Part shown: positions 51,148-58,047 of the stretch, one piece after another | Layout of the letters: every line of letters starts with the position of its first letter | Position numbering within the stretch: the first letter of the stretch is position 1 | Origin: Phycisphaerales bacterium | Lineage (GTDB): Bacteria; Planctomycetota; Phycisphaerae; Phycisphaerales; UBA1924 | Direction of reading: 5' to 3' | NCBI GenBank assembly: GCA_019750095.1 | Contig: JAIEOW010000072.1 | Coordinates: 1-64,000, forward strand | DNA: 64,000 bases | Notes under the pieces: generated by a model | The model's input: only the letters and a program-made list of their open reading frames with translations | Databases searched by the model: none | What the model was told of the DNA's origin: nothing | Program-made: the position numbers and the translations under genes

Positions 51148-52899
51148 GTGAACGGACTCACGGCCAGATGGACCTTCCGCCAATCCCCCGCGCATGAGGG
51201 GCCAAAGCAGCCGCTCATCAACCGCATTCTGAGCGTGCGCGGGTTTTCCAACCCCGCCGAGGCCGCCGCGTTTCTGTCACCCAAACTGACGCAGTTGCAC
51301 GATCCGTCGCTGATTCCTGATCTGGATCGGGCCGCCGAGCGGATTGTTCGGGCCATGCGCGATGGCGAGCGGATCGTGATTTATGGCGATTACGACGTTG
51401 ACGGAATCACGGCAACGGCGATTCTGTTTCACACGATTCGGATGATTGAGCCGAACGCGGATGTGCGAACATACGTCCCCCACCGCCTGGATGAGGGGTA
51501 TGGGCTGAACTCCGCCGCGATTGCCGAGATTGCCGCGGCGGGGGCCAAGGTGATCGTGAGCGTCGATTGCGGGATCACGGCGGTCGAACCGGCCAACGAA
51601 GCCGCGCGGCTTGGGGTGGATCTGATCATCACCGATCACCACACGCCGCCGACGACCATGGAGGGGTTGCCGAGGGCGTTTGCCGTCGTTCATCCGCGTC
51701 GGCCGGACTCGGCGTATCCGTTTGGGGAGCTGTCCGGAGCGGGTGTTGCGTACAAGCTGGCGTGGCGACTTGCCACGGCGGCGACGGGATCATCGCGGGC
51801 CGATGAGAAGGTTCGGGGGATGCTGGTGGAACTGCTGGCGATGGCCGCGCTCGGGACGATCGCGGACATTGTGCCGCTGGTGGGTGAGAATCGGGTGCTG
51901 GCGAGCTTTGGGCTGGTGCGCGCGAAGCACTCGCCTTTGATCGGGCTGCAGGCGCTTGTGGATGCGAGCGGGCTTGGGGGGGAAGACATCGGGGCGATGG
52001 AAGTCGGATTTCGACTTGGGCCTCGGCTGAATGCGGCGGGTCGGATGGGGCATTCGCGGGAAGCTGTGGAGTTGTTCACGGTCGCCGACGCGGCGCGATG
52101 CAAGGAGATCGCCGAGCACCTGTCGAAGCAGAATGAGCAACGTCGGCGCGTAGAGAGCGACATCTTTGAGCTGGCGTGCGAGCTGGCTGAGAAACAAGGG
52201 ATGACGGGAACGGATCGACGCGCGATCGTGCTGGCGCATGAGACGTGGCACGCGGGCGTGGTGGGGATTGTGTGTTCGAGATTGGTCGAGCGGTTTCATC
52301 GGCCGGCGATCTTGATGCAGAAGCGCGATGGCGTCTGTCACGGGTCGGGGCGATCGGTGGATGGGTTCAATCTGCATGCGGGGCTGACGCATTGCGCTGA
52401 GCATCTGGAGAAGTACGGCGGGCACAGCATGGCGGCTGGTGTGCATGTGGTCGAGCCGAAACTGTCACACTTTGTGGATGCGTTTACCGAGTATGCCAAC
52501 GCGGCGATCGCGCCTGAGCGGTTGTGTGCGGGCGTGACGATCGATTGCGAGGCGACGATGAGTGAGCTGTCGCTGGAGGGTGTGAACGACCTTCAGCGGC
52601 TGGGGCCGTTTGGTGCGGGAAATCCGAGGCCGAAGGTGCTGGTGCGGAACTTGCGAATCACCGAGTTTCGGGCGATGGGGTCGATGGGGAAGCACCTGAG
52701 CATTCGACTGCGATCTGGGGATGCGGTGTCGAATGGGGGCGTGAGTGAGTGGCGGGCGGTTGGTTGGAACTGGGGTCGGCACGCGTCGCGACTCGCGGTT
52801 GGAAAGAGCGTGGACGCGGTGATCTCGCCGGCGATTTCCTACTTTGGGGGCGGGCCGAGGGTGGAGCCGGAGATTGCGGATCTGGCGATCAGGGCGTAG
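51148..52899 (+). CDS. recJ: Single-stranded-DNA-specific 5'-3' exonuclease RecJ
   Basis: 583 residues from GTG 51148. DHH phosphoesterase motifs DYDVDG (81-86) and ITDHH (DHH 163-165), the DHHA1 motif GGHSMAAG, and an OB-like C-terminal domain are present, all of normal length. Functions in recombination and repair. It is divergent from the adenosyltransferase gene; a TACACT promoter-like box near 51132 would give a very short leader. The following gap holds a palindromic repeat. Confidence 0.95.
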   Translation: MNGLTARWTFRQSPAHEGPKQPLINRILSVRGFSNPAEAAAFLSPKLTQLHDPSLIPDLDRAAERIVRAMRDGERIVIYGDYDVDGITATAILFHTIRMIEPNADVRTYVPHRLDEGYGLNSAAIAEIAAAGAKVIVSVDCGITAVEPANEAARLGVDLIITDHHTPPTTMEGLPRAFAVVHPRRPDSAYPFGELSGAGVAYKLAWRLATAATGSSRADEKVRGMLVELLAMAALGTIADIVPLVGENRVLASFGLVRAKHSPLIGLQALVDASGLGGEDIGAMEVGFRLGPRLNAAGRMGHSREAVELFTVADAARCKEIAEHLSKQNEQRRRVESDIFELACELAEKQGMTGTDRRAIVLAHETWHAGVVGIVCSRLVERFHRPAILMQKRDGVCHGSGRSVDGFNLHAGLTHCAEHLEKYGGHSMAAGVHVVEPKLSHFVDAFTEYANAAIAPERLCAGVTIDCEATMSELSLEGVNDLQRLGPFGAGNPRPKVLVRNLRITEFRAMGSMGKHLSIRLRSGDAVSNGGVSEWRAVGWNWGRHASRLAVGKSVDAVISPAISYFGGGPRVEPEIADLAIRA

Positions 52900-52962
52900 T
52901 GCGATGGGCTTGAGGTGACGGATGCGAGATGGGATCGCGTCTTGGGGAGTGGGCAACACAAA

Positions 52963-52990
52963 GGCACACAGGCGGGACGCCTGTGCCACC
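52963..52990. repeat. Palindromic repeat, copy 5
   Basis: GGCACACAGGCGGGACGCCT then GTGCCACC; hairpin CACAGGCG/CGCCTGTG at 52967-52985. It lies between recJ and the Hcp-like gene, upstream of the latter's ribosome binding site. Confidence 0.75.
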
Positions 52991-53008: not shown

Positions 53009-53620
53009 ATGTCGCGAGCCGTACTGATTGGAGCTGCGTGCGTGTTTGGTTTGGCGGCGATCGCGCCGCTGGCGCCGATGACGGCCCCGGCGCAGATGGT
53101 GCCCAACTCGCTGCCGGTGCCCCAGCGGGATGATCCGACGCTGCCGAAGCCACGTGCGAAGCCGACGGCGATCGGGCTCGCGGCGGGTGAGTTCACGGTG
53201 CTGATCGAGGGCTCAAAGCAGGGGCGCTTCAAAAGCGAGGGCACGACGGACACGACGCGCGATCGGATCGTCGGGTTTGAGTACACGCATGATCTTGGGC
53301 AGCCGACGGACAAGGACGGCGTGCCGTCGGGCAAGAGCCGGCACCTGCCGATCATGTTCACGAAGGAATGGGGCGCGGCGTCGCCGCAGATTTTTCAGGC
53401 CGCGGCGAATGGCGAGACGCTCAAGAGCGTGACGTTTGAGTTCTATCAGCCGGGCGTCAGCGGCGGGCTGGAGCATTTCTACACGGTGAAGCTGACCAAC
53501 GCCGTGGTGAGCCATGTGCGGCAGCGGATGGTGGCGGGGCGGGATGTGGAGGATGTGTGGGTGACGTTTCAGAAGATTGAGGTGGAGCACAGGGGGAGTA
53601 AGACGCGGGCGGAGGATTGA
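53009..53620 (+). CDS. Orphan Hcp-like protein with signal peptide
   Basis: 203 residues from ATG 53009 (GGAG upstream). Signal peptide MSRAVLIGAACVFGLAAIAP with cleavage near PAQ, a short Pro-rich linker, then an Hcp-type beta-barrel: FTVLIEGSKQGRFKSEG, RHLPIMFTKEWGAASPQIFQ and YTVKLTNAVVSHV match the tube-protein family of type VI secretion. Hcp normally lacks a signal peptide, and no T6SS baseplate, sheath or VgrG gene is nearby, so a tube role is doubtful. Function unknown. Confidence 0.8.
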   Translation: MSRAVLIGAACVFGLAAIAPLAPMTAPAQMVPNSLPVPQRDDPTLPKPRAKPTAIGLAAGEFTVLIEGSKQGRFKSEGTTDTTRDRIVGFEYTHDLGQPTDKDGVPSGKSRHLPIMFTKEWGAASPQIFQAAANGETLKSVTFEFYQPGVSGGLEHFYTVKLTNAVVSHVRQRMVAGRDVEDVWVTFQKIEVEHRGSKTRAED

Positions 53621-53625
53621 TCGGT

Positions 53626-53767
53626 CAATCCGAGGCCTGGGCGCGAGCCCAGGTACGAGCGACGTGGGATGGGCGTCATCGCCGACTTGCGGGGATGTAC
53701 AACGACCGTCGGGCGTCGTGGGTGCCCGGGCTCGCGCCCGGGCCTCGGATTGAGGGCCTCGGATTGG
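53626..53767. repeat. Inverted-repeat element between Hcp-like and putA
   Basis: Left arm 53626-53663 contains CCGAGGCCTGGGCGCGAGCC then CAGGTACGAGCGAC; right arm 53715-53752 is its imperfect complement (GTCGTGGGTGCCCGGGCTCG then CGCCCGGGCCTCGGATTG), followed by a partial repeat AGGGCCTCGGATTGG. About 140 bp, no coding sequence; another MITE-like or palindromic repeat in the gap between convergent genes. Confidence 0.7.
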
Positions 53768-53770
53768 AGG

Positions 53771-56700
53771 TCAAAGTTCGGGAGCGAAGCCACGTCTGAG
53801 GGTGTTTTCGCAGCTGGCTCTTGGCTCGACGAACTGGAGGAGGTAGTCGGTGCCACCGGCTTTGGAGCCGACGCCGGACATACCGAAGCCGCCGAAGGGT
53901 TGGCGGGCGACGAGGGCACCGGTGATGCCGCGGTTGAGGTAGAGGTTGCCGACGCGGAAGTGGCGTTTGGCGCGTTCGAGGTGGCTGGGCTTGCGGCTGA
54001 AGACGCCGCCGGTGAGTTTGTAAGGAAGACCGTTGGCGATGGTGAGCGCGTCTTCGAAGGTTGACGCGTGCATGATGGCGAGCACGGGGCCGAAGATCTC
54101 TTCGCGAGCGATGGTGTGGGTGGGTTTGACGTTGCTGAAGATGTGGGGAGGAACGAAGGGGAGGGGGCGGGAATCGGGAATCGGGAGTCGGGAATCGGGG
54201 AGAGGCAGAGCCAGTTCGAGTTTGCAGCCCTCTTGCTTGGCTTTCTCGATGTACGAGTAGATTTTCTGCTGGGCCTCGGCGTCGATGACTGGGCCGACAT
54301 CGGTGCCGGGTTTGGTGGGGTCGCCGATGGTGAGGGCTTTGGTGGCTTCGACGATGCGTTCGATGACTTTGCGGATGGCGGGGCCGTTCTCGCCGTCGGG
54401 GTCGACGACGATGAGGCGTGAGCAAGCGGAGCACTTCTGGCCCTGGAAGCCGAAGGCGGAGTGACGAACGGCGAGGACGGCCTCGTCGAGATCGGCGGAG
54501 GTGTCGATGATGATGGCGTTCTTGCCGCCCATCTCGCAGATGACTTTTTTGACGTGGGTGAGTGAAGAAGTGACTGAGTGACGGAGTGATGGAGTGACGG
54601 AGAAGGGAGACGGAGGGGCGGCGGCGCTGAGGATGTCGAGGCCGACATCGCGCGAGCCGGTGAAGGCGATGACGGCGACGCGGGGGTCTCGGACGAGCGA
54701 TGCACCGGTTGTTTCGCCCGGTGCGGGGCAGAGCTGGACGATGCCGCGGGGCGGGGGGGGGGTGGGGCCGGGGAAGGTCTCGGCGAGGGCTCGCTCGAGG
54801 ATGTCGAACAAGGCGCGAGCGATGCCCGGGGTCTGCTCGGCGGGCTTGATGATGACGGGGTTGCCGGTGACGAGGGCGGCGACGGTCATGCCGCAGCAGA
54901 TGGCGAGGGGGAAATTCCAAGGGGCGATGACGACGCTGACGCCGCGGGGCTGGTACCAGACTTCGTCGAGCTCGCCGAGGAATCGGCCCACGCGCTGGCG
55001 ATCAAAGAGCTTGACGGCCTCGCGGGCGTAGAACTCGCAGAAGTCGATGGCCTCGCAGGTATCGGCATCGGCCTCGCGCCAGGTTTTGCCGGCTTCTTTG
55101 ATCATGATGCCGGAGAGTTCGTCGCGCTTCTCGCGCATGAGCTGGGCGGCTTTGGTGAGCACGGCGGCGCGTTTGAGAGCATCCGTGTCCTGCCAGAAGT
55201 CGAAGGCCGCGTCGGCGGCGTCGACCATGGCGCGGGCCTGCTCGACGGTGGTGGTGTTCTGGATCTCGGGCACACGGGCGTTGCTGACGGCCGCGGCGTA
55301 GGCGGTGCGGACGCTGGCCTGTGAGAAATCGCGGAAGGACTCGTTGAAGAACGGGCGGCCGTCGCCGACACCGGGAACGGCTGAAGTGAGGGCGTGGCGC
55401 TCTTTGGCGATGGTGGAGAGATCGGGTTTGGCTTCCCCCCCACCGCCAGCGGGTGCCGAGCCGTGCGGCGAGGCAAGAAGGATGGCCGGGTCGGCGTTGT
55501 CGAGGAAGCCGGCTTTGAGCCAGGATTCGTTGGAGGTGTTCTCGAGCAGTCGACGCACGAGGTATGCCATGCCGGGGATCATCTCGCCGACGGGGACGTA
55601 TTCGCGGACGCGGAGGTTCATCTCGGCGGCGGCGTGTTTGAGCTGGTCGGCCATGCCGTGGAGCATCTGGAGCTCGATGGCGGAGGTTGGCAGGCCGCGT
55701 TTCTCGAGGCCGGCGAGGGCGTAGGCGATGGAGCGGACGTTGTGGGAGCCGAGGGCGAGCTTGACGCCCCCCCCAACCGCGCCACCGCTCTTTGCATCGC
55801 GCGGGCATGCATCCAAGAAGATGTCCGTCATGCGCTCGAAGCAGGCGTCGGTCTCGCGCTTGGTGCGCCAGACGGGGCAGGGCCAGCCCATCTGCTCGGC
55901 GTGGATGACTTCGTAATCCCAGTACGCGCCCTTGACGAGGCGGACGCTCACAACGCGGCCGGTGCGTTTGGACCATTCGCAGATTCGGCGGGCGTCGTCC
56001 TCGCCGCTGGTGAGATAGGCCTGCATGGCGAGCCCGGCCTGGAAATCGACCTTTTCACAGCATCGCATGAAGAGTTCGAGCGTGAGGTCTTTGAGCGAGC
56101 GCTGCTCCATGTCGAAGTTGACGAAGACGCCTTTGGCTTTGGCGGCTTCGAGGATGGGGACGATGCGCTGCATGAGGGCGGCGATGGAGCCCTCGGTATC
56201 GATCGGATCGACACGTGCAGAGAGTGAGCTGATCTTGATGGAGACGTTGGTGCGCGGGATGGGGCCGAGGTGGTCGGATTCAAGCCGCGGGTTGGGCTTC
56301 CAACCGGCAACCGCGCCGGGGAGGTTGTTGACGAGGTCGAGGTACTTGGCCTGATACTGGTGGGCTTCGTGTTCGGAGACGCAGGCCTCGCCCAGGAGAT
56401 CGACGCTGAAGGCGATGCCGTCGTTCCAGAGGTCTTTGAGGTTGCCCAGCGCGCTGGCGGCGTCGGTGCCGGCGATGAACTTGCTGGCCATGCCGGTGAT
56501 CTGGGAGGTAATCTGCTTGGTGGCGAGGCCCTTGGCGATGCCGCCGGCTTTGAGGCCGAGATCGATGGCGGCGGGGACCTTGACGCCGGGCTGGGTGAGA
56601 TAATCCTGAAGATGCTCGAAGATGTCTTCTGGAGACTTGAGCATGGGGAAGGCGTCGACGAAGCGGAAGAGCTGGACCTTGAAGGCCTGGTCCTGCATGG

Positions 56701-56905
56701 ACCATTCCATGAGTTTGTCGGAGTAGAAGCGTGCGCTGAGGAGGCCGGTTTTGTGCTTGCGCGCGCGGTCGAGCATCTCGCGGCCGAGGTCGAGGACTCG
56801 GGGTTCGTCGGCGGATGAAGCGGACAGGGCGTGGGCCGGTCGCGGGGCGACCGGTTGGGATGCGGAGGTGGCTACGGGCTTGGGCTTGCGCGAGAAGATC
56901 GCCAT
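53771..56905 (-). CDS. putA: Bifunctional proline dehydrogenase / glutamate-semialdehyde dehydrogenase
   Basis: Oxidises proline to glutamate in two steps. 1,044 residues from ATG 56905. No N-terminal DNA-binding domain, so it is not a trifunctional PutA. Proline dehydrogenase part (about 50-470) includes SVRLVKGAYWDYEV; aldehyde dehydrogenase part has VIAPWNFPLAI, the base Glu in CEMGGKN (about 790) and nucleophile Cys in QGQKCSAC (about 823). Several G/P- or repeat-coded insertions interrupt it (see findings). Converges with the Hcp-like gene; divergent from ribF. Confidence 0.93.
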   Translation of the reverse strand: MAIFSRKPKPVATSASQPVAPRPAHALSASSADEPRVLDLGREMLDRARKHKTGLLSARFYSDKLMEWSMQDQAFKVQLFRFVDAFPMLKSPEDIFEHLQDYLTQPGVKVPAAIDLGLKAGGIAKGLATKQITSQITGMASKFIAGTDAASALGNLKDLWNDGIAFSVDLLGEACVSEHEAHQYQAKYLDLVNNLPGAVAGWKPNPRLESDHLGPIPRTNVSIKISSLSARVDPIDTEGSIAALMQRIVPILEAAKAKGVFVNFDMEQRSLKDLTLELFMRCCEKVDFQAGLAMQAYLTSGEDDARRICEWSKRTGRVVSVRLVKGAYWDYEVIHAEQMGWPCPVWRTKRETDACFERMTDIFLDACPRDAKSGGAVGGGVKLALGSHNVRSIAYALAGLEKRGLPTSAIELQMLHGMADQLKHAAAEMNLRVREYVPVGEMIPGMAYLVRRLLENTSNESWLKAGFLDNADPAILLASPHGSAPAGGGGEAKPDLSTIAKERHALTSAVPGVGDGRPFFNESFRDFSQASVRTAYAAAVSNARVPEIQNTTTVEQARAMVDAADAAFDFWQDTDALKRAAVLTKAAQLMREKRDELSGIMIKEAGKTWREADADTCEAIDFCEFYAREAVKLFDRQRVGRFLGELDEVWYQPRGVSVVIAPWNFPLAICCGMTVAALVTGNPVIIKPAEQTPGIARALFDILERALAETFPGPTPPPPRGIVQLCPAPGETTGASLVRDPRVAVIAFTGSRDVGLDILSAAAPPSPFSVTPSLRHSVTSSLTHVKKVICEMGGKNAIIIDTSADLDEAVLAVRHSAFGFQGQKCSACSRLIVVDPDGENGPAIRKVIERIVEATKALTIGDPTKPGTDVGPVIDAEAQQKIYSYIEKAKQEGCKLELALPLPDSRLPIPDSRPLPFVPPHIFSNVKPTHTIAREEIFGPVLAIMHASTFEDALTIANGLPYKLTGGVFSRKPSHLERAKRHFRVGNLYLNRGITGALVARQPFGGFGMSGVGSKAGGTDYLLQFVEPRASCENTLRRGFAPEL

Positions 56906-57027
56906 GCGTCGAGATGCCCTTTCGGATGGATCGGCGTTGGGTGAGGTGCGTGCCGAGCCGTGAGGCAGAGTGTACGGGGTTTGCTGGCCGAACTCACCCG
57001 GCGTTTGGCCTAGTGTTGGACCACGGA

Positions 57028-58047
57028 ATGGACAAGACGGCCCACCAGAACGAATCAAGAGGGAGCGTGCCGAGCGTTTTGTGCATCGGGACGTTTGACG
57101 GGGTGCATCTCGGGCATCGGGCGTTGATCCGCCGAGCGCGGGAGATTGCTGATGCGCACGCGGGGGCGCGGGTGGTGGCGCTGGTGTTCAAGCCGAATCC
57201 GGTGGAGGTGCTGAGGCCGCACGCGGCTCCGCCGAGGTTGTCGATGTTTGAGCGTCGGCGTGACTGGCTGCTATCGGCGGGTGCGGACGTGGTGGAGCGG
57301 CTGGAGCCGACGCCGGAGCTGCTGGATCTTTCGCCCGAGGAGTATGTGCGGCAGACGGTGGAGCGGTACCGGCCGATCGCTTTTGTTGAAGGGGGAGATT
57401 TTCGTTTTGGAAGGGCACGCGCGGGGGACAATCGGCTTTTGGCCGAGCTTGGCGGGCGGCATGGGTTCAGCGTGAGCGTGGTGGAACAGGTGCAGGTGGC
57501 GTTGACGGACCACCAGTTGGTGCCGGCGCGGAGCACGATCGTGCGGTGGCTGCTGAGTGAGGGTCGCGTGCGAGATGCTGCGCGGGTGTTGTCACGGGCG
57601 TTTGAGATTTCGGGGACGGTGGTACGGGGCGACCAGCGCGGGCGGACGATCGGGTTTCCCACGGCGAACATCGAGACGCCGACGATGATCCCTGCGGACG
57701 GGGTGTATGCGGCGCGGGCGCATCTGCCGGATGGACGGGTGATGGCTGCGGCGGTGAGCATTGGCACGAAGCCGACGTTCGGCGAGCATGGTCGTGCGGT
57801 TGAGGCGCACTTGCTCGGGCTTGATGGATCGAGGATTGCGGGTCCGGGGCAAGGGTGGAAGACGCTACCGGAACTGCCGGAGTATGGGTGGGCGATTCGG
57901 CTGGAGATGCTGGCGTGGGTGCGTGAGCAGGTGCGATTTGCGGGTCTTGACGCGCTGCTCGGGCAGTTGCGGCGTGATTGTGAGCGGGTGTGCGAGATCG
58001 TGCGGGCGGAGTCGGTGTCTTCTGAGCTACAGGAAACCAACGCGTGA
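57028..58047 (+). CDS. ribF: Bifunctional riboflavin kinase / FAD synthetase
   Basis: Makes FMN then FAD. 339 residues from ATG 57028. N-terminal nucleotidyltransferase motif CIGTFDGVHLGHRALI and FVEGGDFRFGR, and the C-terminal kinase domain GRTIGFPTANIETP. No FMN riboswitch is recognised in the 122-bp gap to putA. It overlaps the next gene by GTGA, so riboflavin metabolism is coupled to the DHH phosphoesterase. Confidence 0.95.
   Translation: MDKTAHQNESRGSVPSVLCIGTFDGVHLGHRALIRRAREIADAHAGARVVALVFKPNPVEVLRPHAAPPRLSMFERRRDWLLSAGADVVERLEPTPELLDLSPEEYVRQTVERYRPIAFVEGGDFRFGRARAGDNRLLAELGGRHGFSVSVVEQVQVALTDHQLVPARSTIVRWLLSEGRVRDAARVLSRAFEISGTVVRGDQRGRTIGFPTANIETPTMIPADGVYAARAHLPDGRVMAAAVSIGTKPTFGEHGRAVEAHLLGLDGSRIAGPGQGWKTLPELPEYGWAIRLEMLAWVREQVRFAGLDALLGQLRRDCERVCEIVRAESVSSELQETNA

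Follow-up and report, generated by a model that had tools for sequence, protein, structure and literature searches.

A predicted exported Hcp-domain protein encoded apart from the resident type VI secretion system of a Phycisphaerales bacterium

Hcp genes serve as markers of type VI secretion systems (T6SS). One gene in the window, the 64-kb stretch of Phycisphaerales DNA analysed here, raises the question of what an Hcp-fold protein may do when it begins with an apparent secretion signal and is encoded on its own. The gene lies at 53009–53620 on the forward strand and encodes P0001, a predicted exported Hcp-domain protein of 203 amino acids. On the same strand, the protein divides into a predicted Sec signal peptide (53009–53092, approximately residues 1–28, with a putative cleavage site after APA), a proline-rich linker modelled with low confidence (53093–53188, residues 29–60) and an Hcp beta-barrel domain (53189–53617, residues 61–203).

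The gene stands alone, as originally predicted, with recJ on one side and putA on the other, away from the T6SS genes. The upstream recJ gene (51148–52899, forward strand), named from the original prediction and conserved homologues, is separated from it by a gap of 109 nt. The convergent putA gene downstream (53771–57058, reverse strand) is a maximal open reading frame of uncertain start, and its name is that of the original prediction. The ATG of the P0001 gene has AGGAGAAG directly ahead of it. A start at 52922 was discarded; the extension crosses a palindromic repeat, and the open frame of a congener has no ATG there. Just 3' of the gene BLAST identifies an interspersed REP-like inverted repeat with 52-nt arms (53621–53753), which has 95 matches in the genome, 21 in the congener G050 and two in the congener G160, counts in which many matches are partial or are one copy counted on both strands. 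A second, short palindrome (AGGCGGGACGCCTG, 52970–52983) lies between recJ and the hcp gene and is found in two exact copies in the window.

P0001 belongs to the Hcp domain family. It matches the Pfam family T6SS_HCP (PF05638) with an E-value of 4e-22 and 79.3 bits (cut-off 23.5), and the NCBIfam family TIGR03344 with 80.7 bits (cut-off 58.9). By sequence, the solved structures closest to it are Hcps, which phmmer matches in the PDB with E-values down to 1.3e-13. The AlphaFold2 model, for which the input was 28 sequences, has a mean pLDDT of 84, with residues 61–203 in blocks of 88–98. The top Foldseek matches of this model are 6A2V, 4HKH, 5MXN and 3HE1, all of them Hcp (E-values 3e-15 to 3e-13; TM-scores by target 0.78–0.90 for the best entries). 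The predicted structure therefore agrees with the Hcp beta-barrel that had been proposed from the sequence.

The secretion signal, also part of the original prediction, holds up in comparison with the congener G160. Signals were called from hydrophobicity, the AXA motif and conservation. The hydrophobic core of P0001 has a mean Kyte-Doolittle value of 2.70 over 10 residues, and APA precedes Q-M. The G160 homologue, which is 78% identical and has an intact frame, has a core of 3.12 and VSA before Q-F at the equivalent position. The maximum for unsignalled Hcps in the same table is 1.40 (leaving out L057, a wrong-frame reading). By hydrophobicity and AXA motif, neither P0001 nor its G160 homologue has the cytoplasmic T6SS-type start that lacks a signal peptide. 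The two proteins are 52% identical over residues 2–60 and 87% identical over the domain, with dN/dS of about 0.22 for the signal and linker and about 0.17 for the domain; this pattern therefore indicates that the protein has been kept by selection and the signal kept in kind. The order recJ-hcp-putA is identical in G160. The second congener, G050, has no P0001-type gene and a different region downstream of recJ. Among the three genomes sampled from the genus, two have both the exported hcp and TssC and the third has neither, a congruence that would also fit a link with the T6SS in this genus.

The original prediction described an Hcp-like protein without a T6SS, and this part did not survive a search for tss and vgrG genes elsewhere in the genome; the view that the genome has no T6SS was discarded. 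Contig C165 encodes TssA, TssB, TssC, two tandem unsignalled Hcps, an ImpE-type protein, TssE, TssF, TssG, ClpV/TssH, VgrG and TssM, and contig C167 encodes TssK (TssJ and TssL lie outside the set of genes searched). The P0001 gene is the third hcp of the genome, and so not the only hcp beside a full T6SS, the situation that the original prediction had named as refuting it. The two Hcps of the T6SS have no signal and belong to another subfamily in the tree. Because the P0001 gene is unlinked to the T6SS cluster and belongs to a different Hcp subfamily, it is not the Hcp of the resident T6SS, and the subfamily difference also led us to discard the idea of a recent copy of the resident Hcps. Two further reading frames in the T6SS region are of note. 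One of 3164 amino acids (L034:12-9506, C165:20012-29506) lies in the cluster between TssA and TssM, contains DUF5649 repeats and appears to begin with a signal-like stretch. The other (L033:7183-8073) adjoins VgrG, has a weak Peptidase_M91 match below the cut-off and is a candidate T6SS cargo.

A single-protein scan of genome contigs found no relatives; they were found by a scan with a five-row alignment as query. Many Hcp-domain proteins with a signal-like N-terminal stretch are present in the Phycisphaerae, the class being taken from the titles of the matching records. Among them, three layouts recur. In P0001, L036 and L027 the signal is followed by a short linker and the Hcp domain. In others (for example L051, L053, L054 and L063) the linker has the form LxPxxxPxxTMxTLDEIY. 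In L052, L058, L059, L066 and L071 the signal and Hcp domain are followed by a dockerin-like C-terminus; the Dockerin_1 matches of the proteins scanned fall under Pfam's cut-off. The LxPxxxPxxTMxTLDEIY linker and the weak dockerin-like C-terminus are modules typical of secreted proteins. Similar signal-bearing Hcp proteins are found in Verrucomicrobia, Armatimonadota, Parvularculaceae, Ignavibacteria and Nannocystis. Like P0001, these proteins and those of other Phycisphaerae have a PF05638-type domain behind an N-terminus that resembles a signal; they differ from it in carrying other linkers or dockerin-like C-termini, and those aligned are 22–28% identical to it. The neighbourhoods of the exported Hcps share no common gene that names a pathway, and no gene order is shared beyond two genomes of one genus.

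The use of the Hcp module outside the T6SS, suggested for this one protein in the original prediction, is well supported as a class-wide pattern. TssC is present in none of 17 genomes with signal-bearing Hcps, leaving out the two of this genus (G031, G093, G032, G041, G026, G016, G051, G339, G261, G502, G504, G388, G266, G383, G214, G430 and G424), versus 39 of the 40 with inspected unsignalled Hcps. One of the 17, G214, is a single contig, is 99% complete and has an exported Hcp only, with no TssC. A Fisher test of export versus TssC gives approximately 1e-13, a value that was obtained with 40/41 before G235 (N-terminus uninspected) was dropped, and that overstates the strength of the association, the genomes being related rather than independent and many being incomplete MAGs. 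The exception among the unsignalled genomes is G062, in which TssC was not found; its unsignalled Hcp, L040, has a C-terminal extension. Many relatives have, besides TssC, a second VipB-like reading frame, often of 450–690 amino acids and with E-values of 1e-26 to 1e-48 (for example G024:C4:460610-461464), which is perhaps part of another contractile system.

In the Hcp tree the exported proteins are intermixed with unsignalled ones. A single clade of exported Hcps was rejected by the AU test (p 8e-7), a result to be read with caution as several branches are long. The tree does not give the direction of the signal changes, gain or loss. The exported proteins also differ at one end of the barrel. 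Between two alignment anchors the unsignalled Hcps have a loop of exactly 18 residues in 45 of 47 cases, the others having 19 and 27; it is shorter than 18 residues in 18/28 exported Hcps versus 0/47 unsignalled ones. P0001 lacks the 18-residue loop of its unsignalled relatives and has 10 residues, with the hairpin near 175–178 being eight fewer than in T6SS Hcps. Alignment with the solved Hcp3 has the same eight-residue difference, and in the model the strands are predicted to join in a tight turn there. Loop L2,3 (approximately residues 94–112) is of normal length to within one residue. Mutation of L2,3 abolishes ring stacking in Burkholderia Hcp1 (PMC4650826). With its shortened barrel-end loop, P0001 may or may not stack into tubes.

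P0001 resembles the T6SS Hcp/TssD proteins, including the solved structures listed above, in its beta-barrel and conserved core motif, in its L2,3 loop and in passing the cut-offs of both families. Unlike them it has a signal peptide and linker, a gene unlinked to a T6SS and a hairpin loop of 10 instead of 18 residues, and it is only 24–29% identical to the unsignalled Hcps of its class. Its genome provides a T6SS setting, which the 17 genomes with exported relatives lack as far as TssC is concerned. Judged by position, signal and loop, P0001 falls outside the T6SS tube proteins. One T6SS study (PMC8262886) excluded from its Hcp tree those PF05638 genes that bear a PEP-CTERM sorting signal (PF07589). 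P0001 would resemble these in having an Hcp domain on a protein destined for export. It differs from them in its proline-rich N-terminal linker and in having no PEP-CTERM tail; its C-terminus reads HRGSKTRAED and PF07589 was not matched in the Pfam scan. We found no study of signal-peptide Hcps in the open-access library searched. Because exported (PEP-CTERM) Hcp-domain genes are already in the databases, P0001 counts as a variant form of a known fold rather than a new system.

We therefore consider it likely that P0001 is a Sec-exported Hcp module of the periplasm or cell surface, probably structural and independent of the resident T6SS. Could it instead be a specialised tube or effector-carrying Hcp of that T6SS, with a hydrophobic N-terminus that is non-working or used only after delivery? 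A T6SS is present in both genomes of the genus that have the gene, the third lacks the gene together with TssC, and the loop required for stacking in Burkholderia is of nearly normal length. We nevertheless find this reading improbable, given a signal and AXA site kept in the congener despite 52% identity there, the missing TssC in 17 exported-Hcp genomes, a barrel-end loop eight residues shorter and a gene unlinked to a cluster that has two Hcps.

Two other explanations seem less probable still. An exported Hcp might act in defence, by binding or capping in the periplasm the Hcp rings that a neighbour's T6SS delivers, or by binding their effectors. Hcp has been described as an effector chaperone and receptor (PMC4650826, PMC5874247), and both this role and the occurrence of exported forms mostly in genomes without a T6SS would suit such a function; the neighbourhoods of exported Hcps were seen to hold no immunity-like genes, and we regard the idea as very improbable. 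The least probable reading is that the gene is what remains of an old hcp, decayed or evolving neutrally, with a signal gained by chance. A dN/dS of 0.17 and 87% identity over the domain, an intact frame in the congener, a complete fold modelled at high confidence and the many further exported Hcps all speak against it, although the gene is an orphan adjoining repeats and is missing from G050, where the downstream gene order is different.

For the preferred reading, a Sec-exported structural module, the pre-protein would be exported, presumably via Sec, and the signal peptide would then be removed. The barrel would be released, or tethered by the proline-rich linker, in the periplasm or on the cell surface, where it may serve as a stand-alone, probably structural module apart from the resident T6SS. 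Comparisons across genomes give good support to the predicted export and to independence from the T6SS, and an envelope or surface module is most likely. The modelled fold and conserved core make ring formation plausible; the surface tube or ring of the original prediction and any binding role are putative. The tube module is probably reused outside the cytoplasm, because signal-bearing relatives recur in T6SS-less genomes. More tentatively, and with considerable doubt, we suggest that Hcp was freed from the T6SS several times and reused in T6SS-less bacteria to form rings or tubes outside the cell or in the periplasm, and that the recurrent loss of the barrel-end loop marks a change of assembly.

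These findings mean that the Hcp marker can mislead, since exported Hcp-fold proteins are found almost only in genomes without the T6SS sheath. The pattern to which P0001 belongs suggests that a phage-tail-like tube module has been repeatedly recruited for jobs outside the cytoplasm, and the role of the exported Hcp barrel is directly testable.
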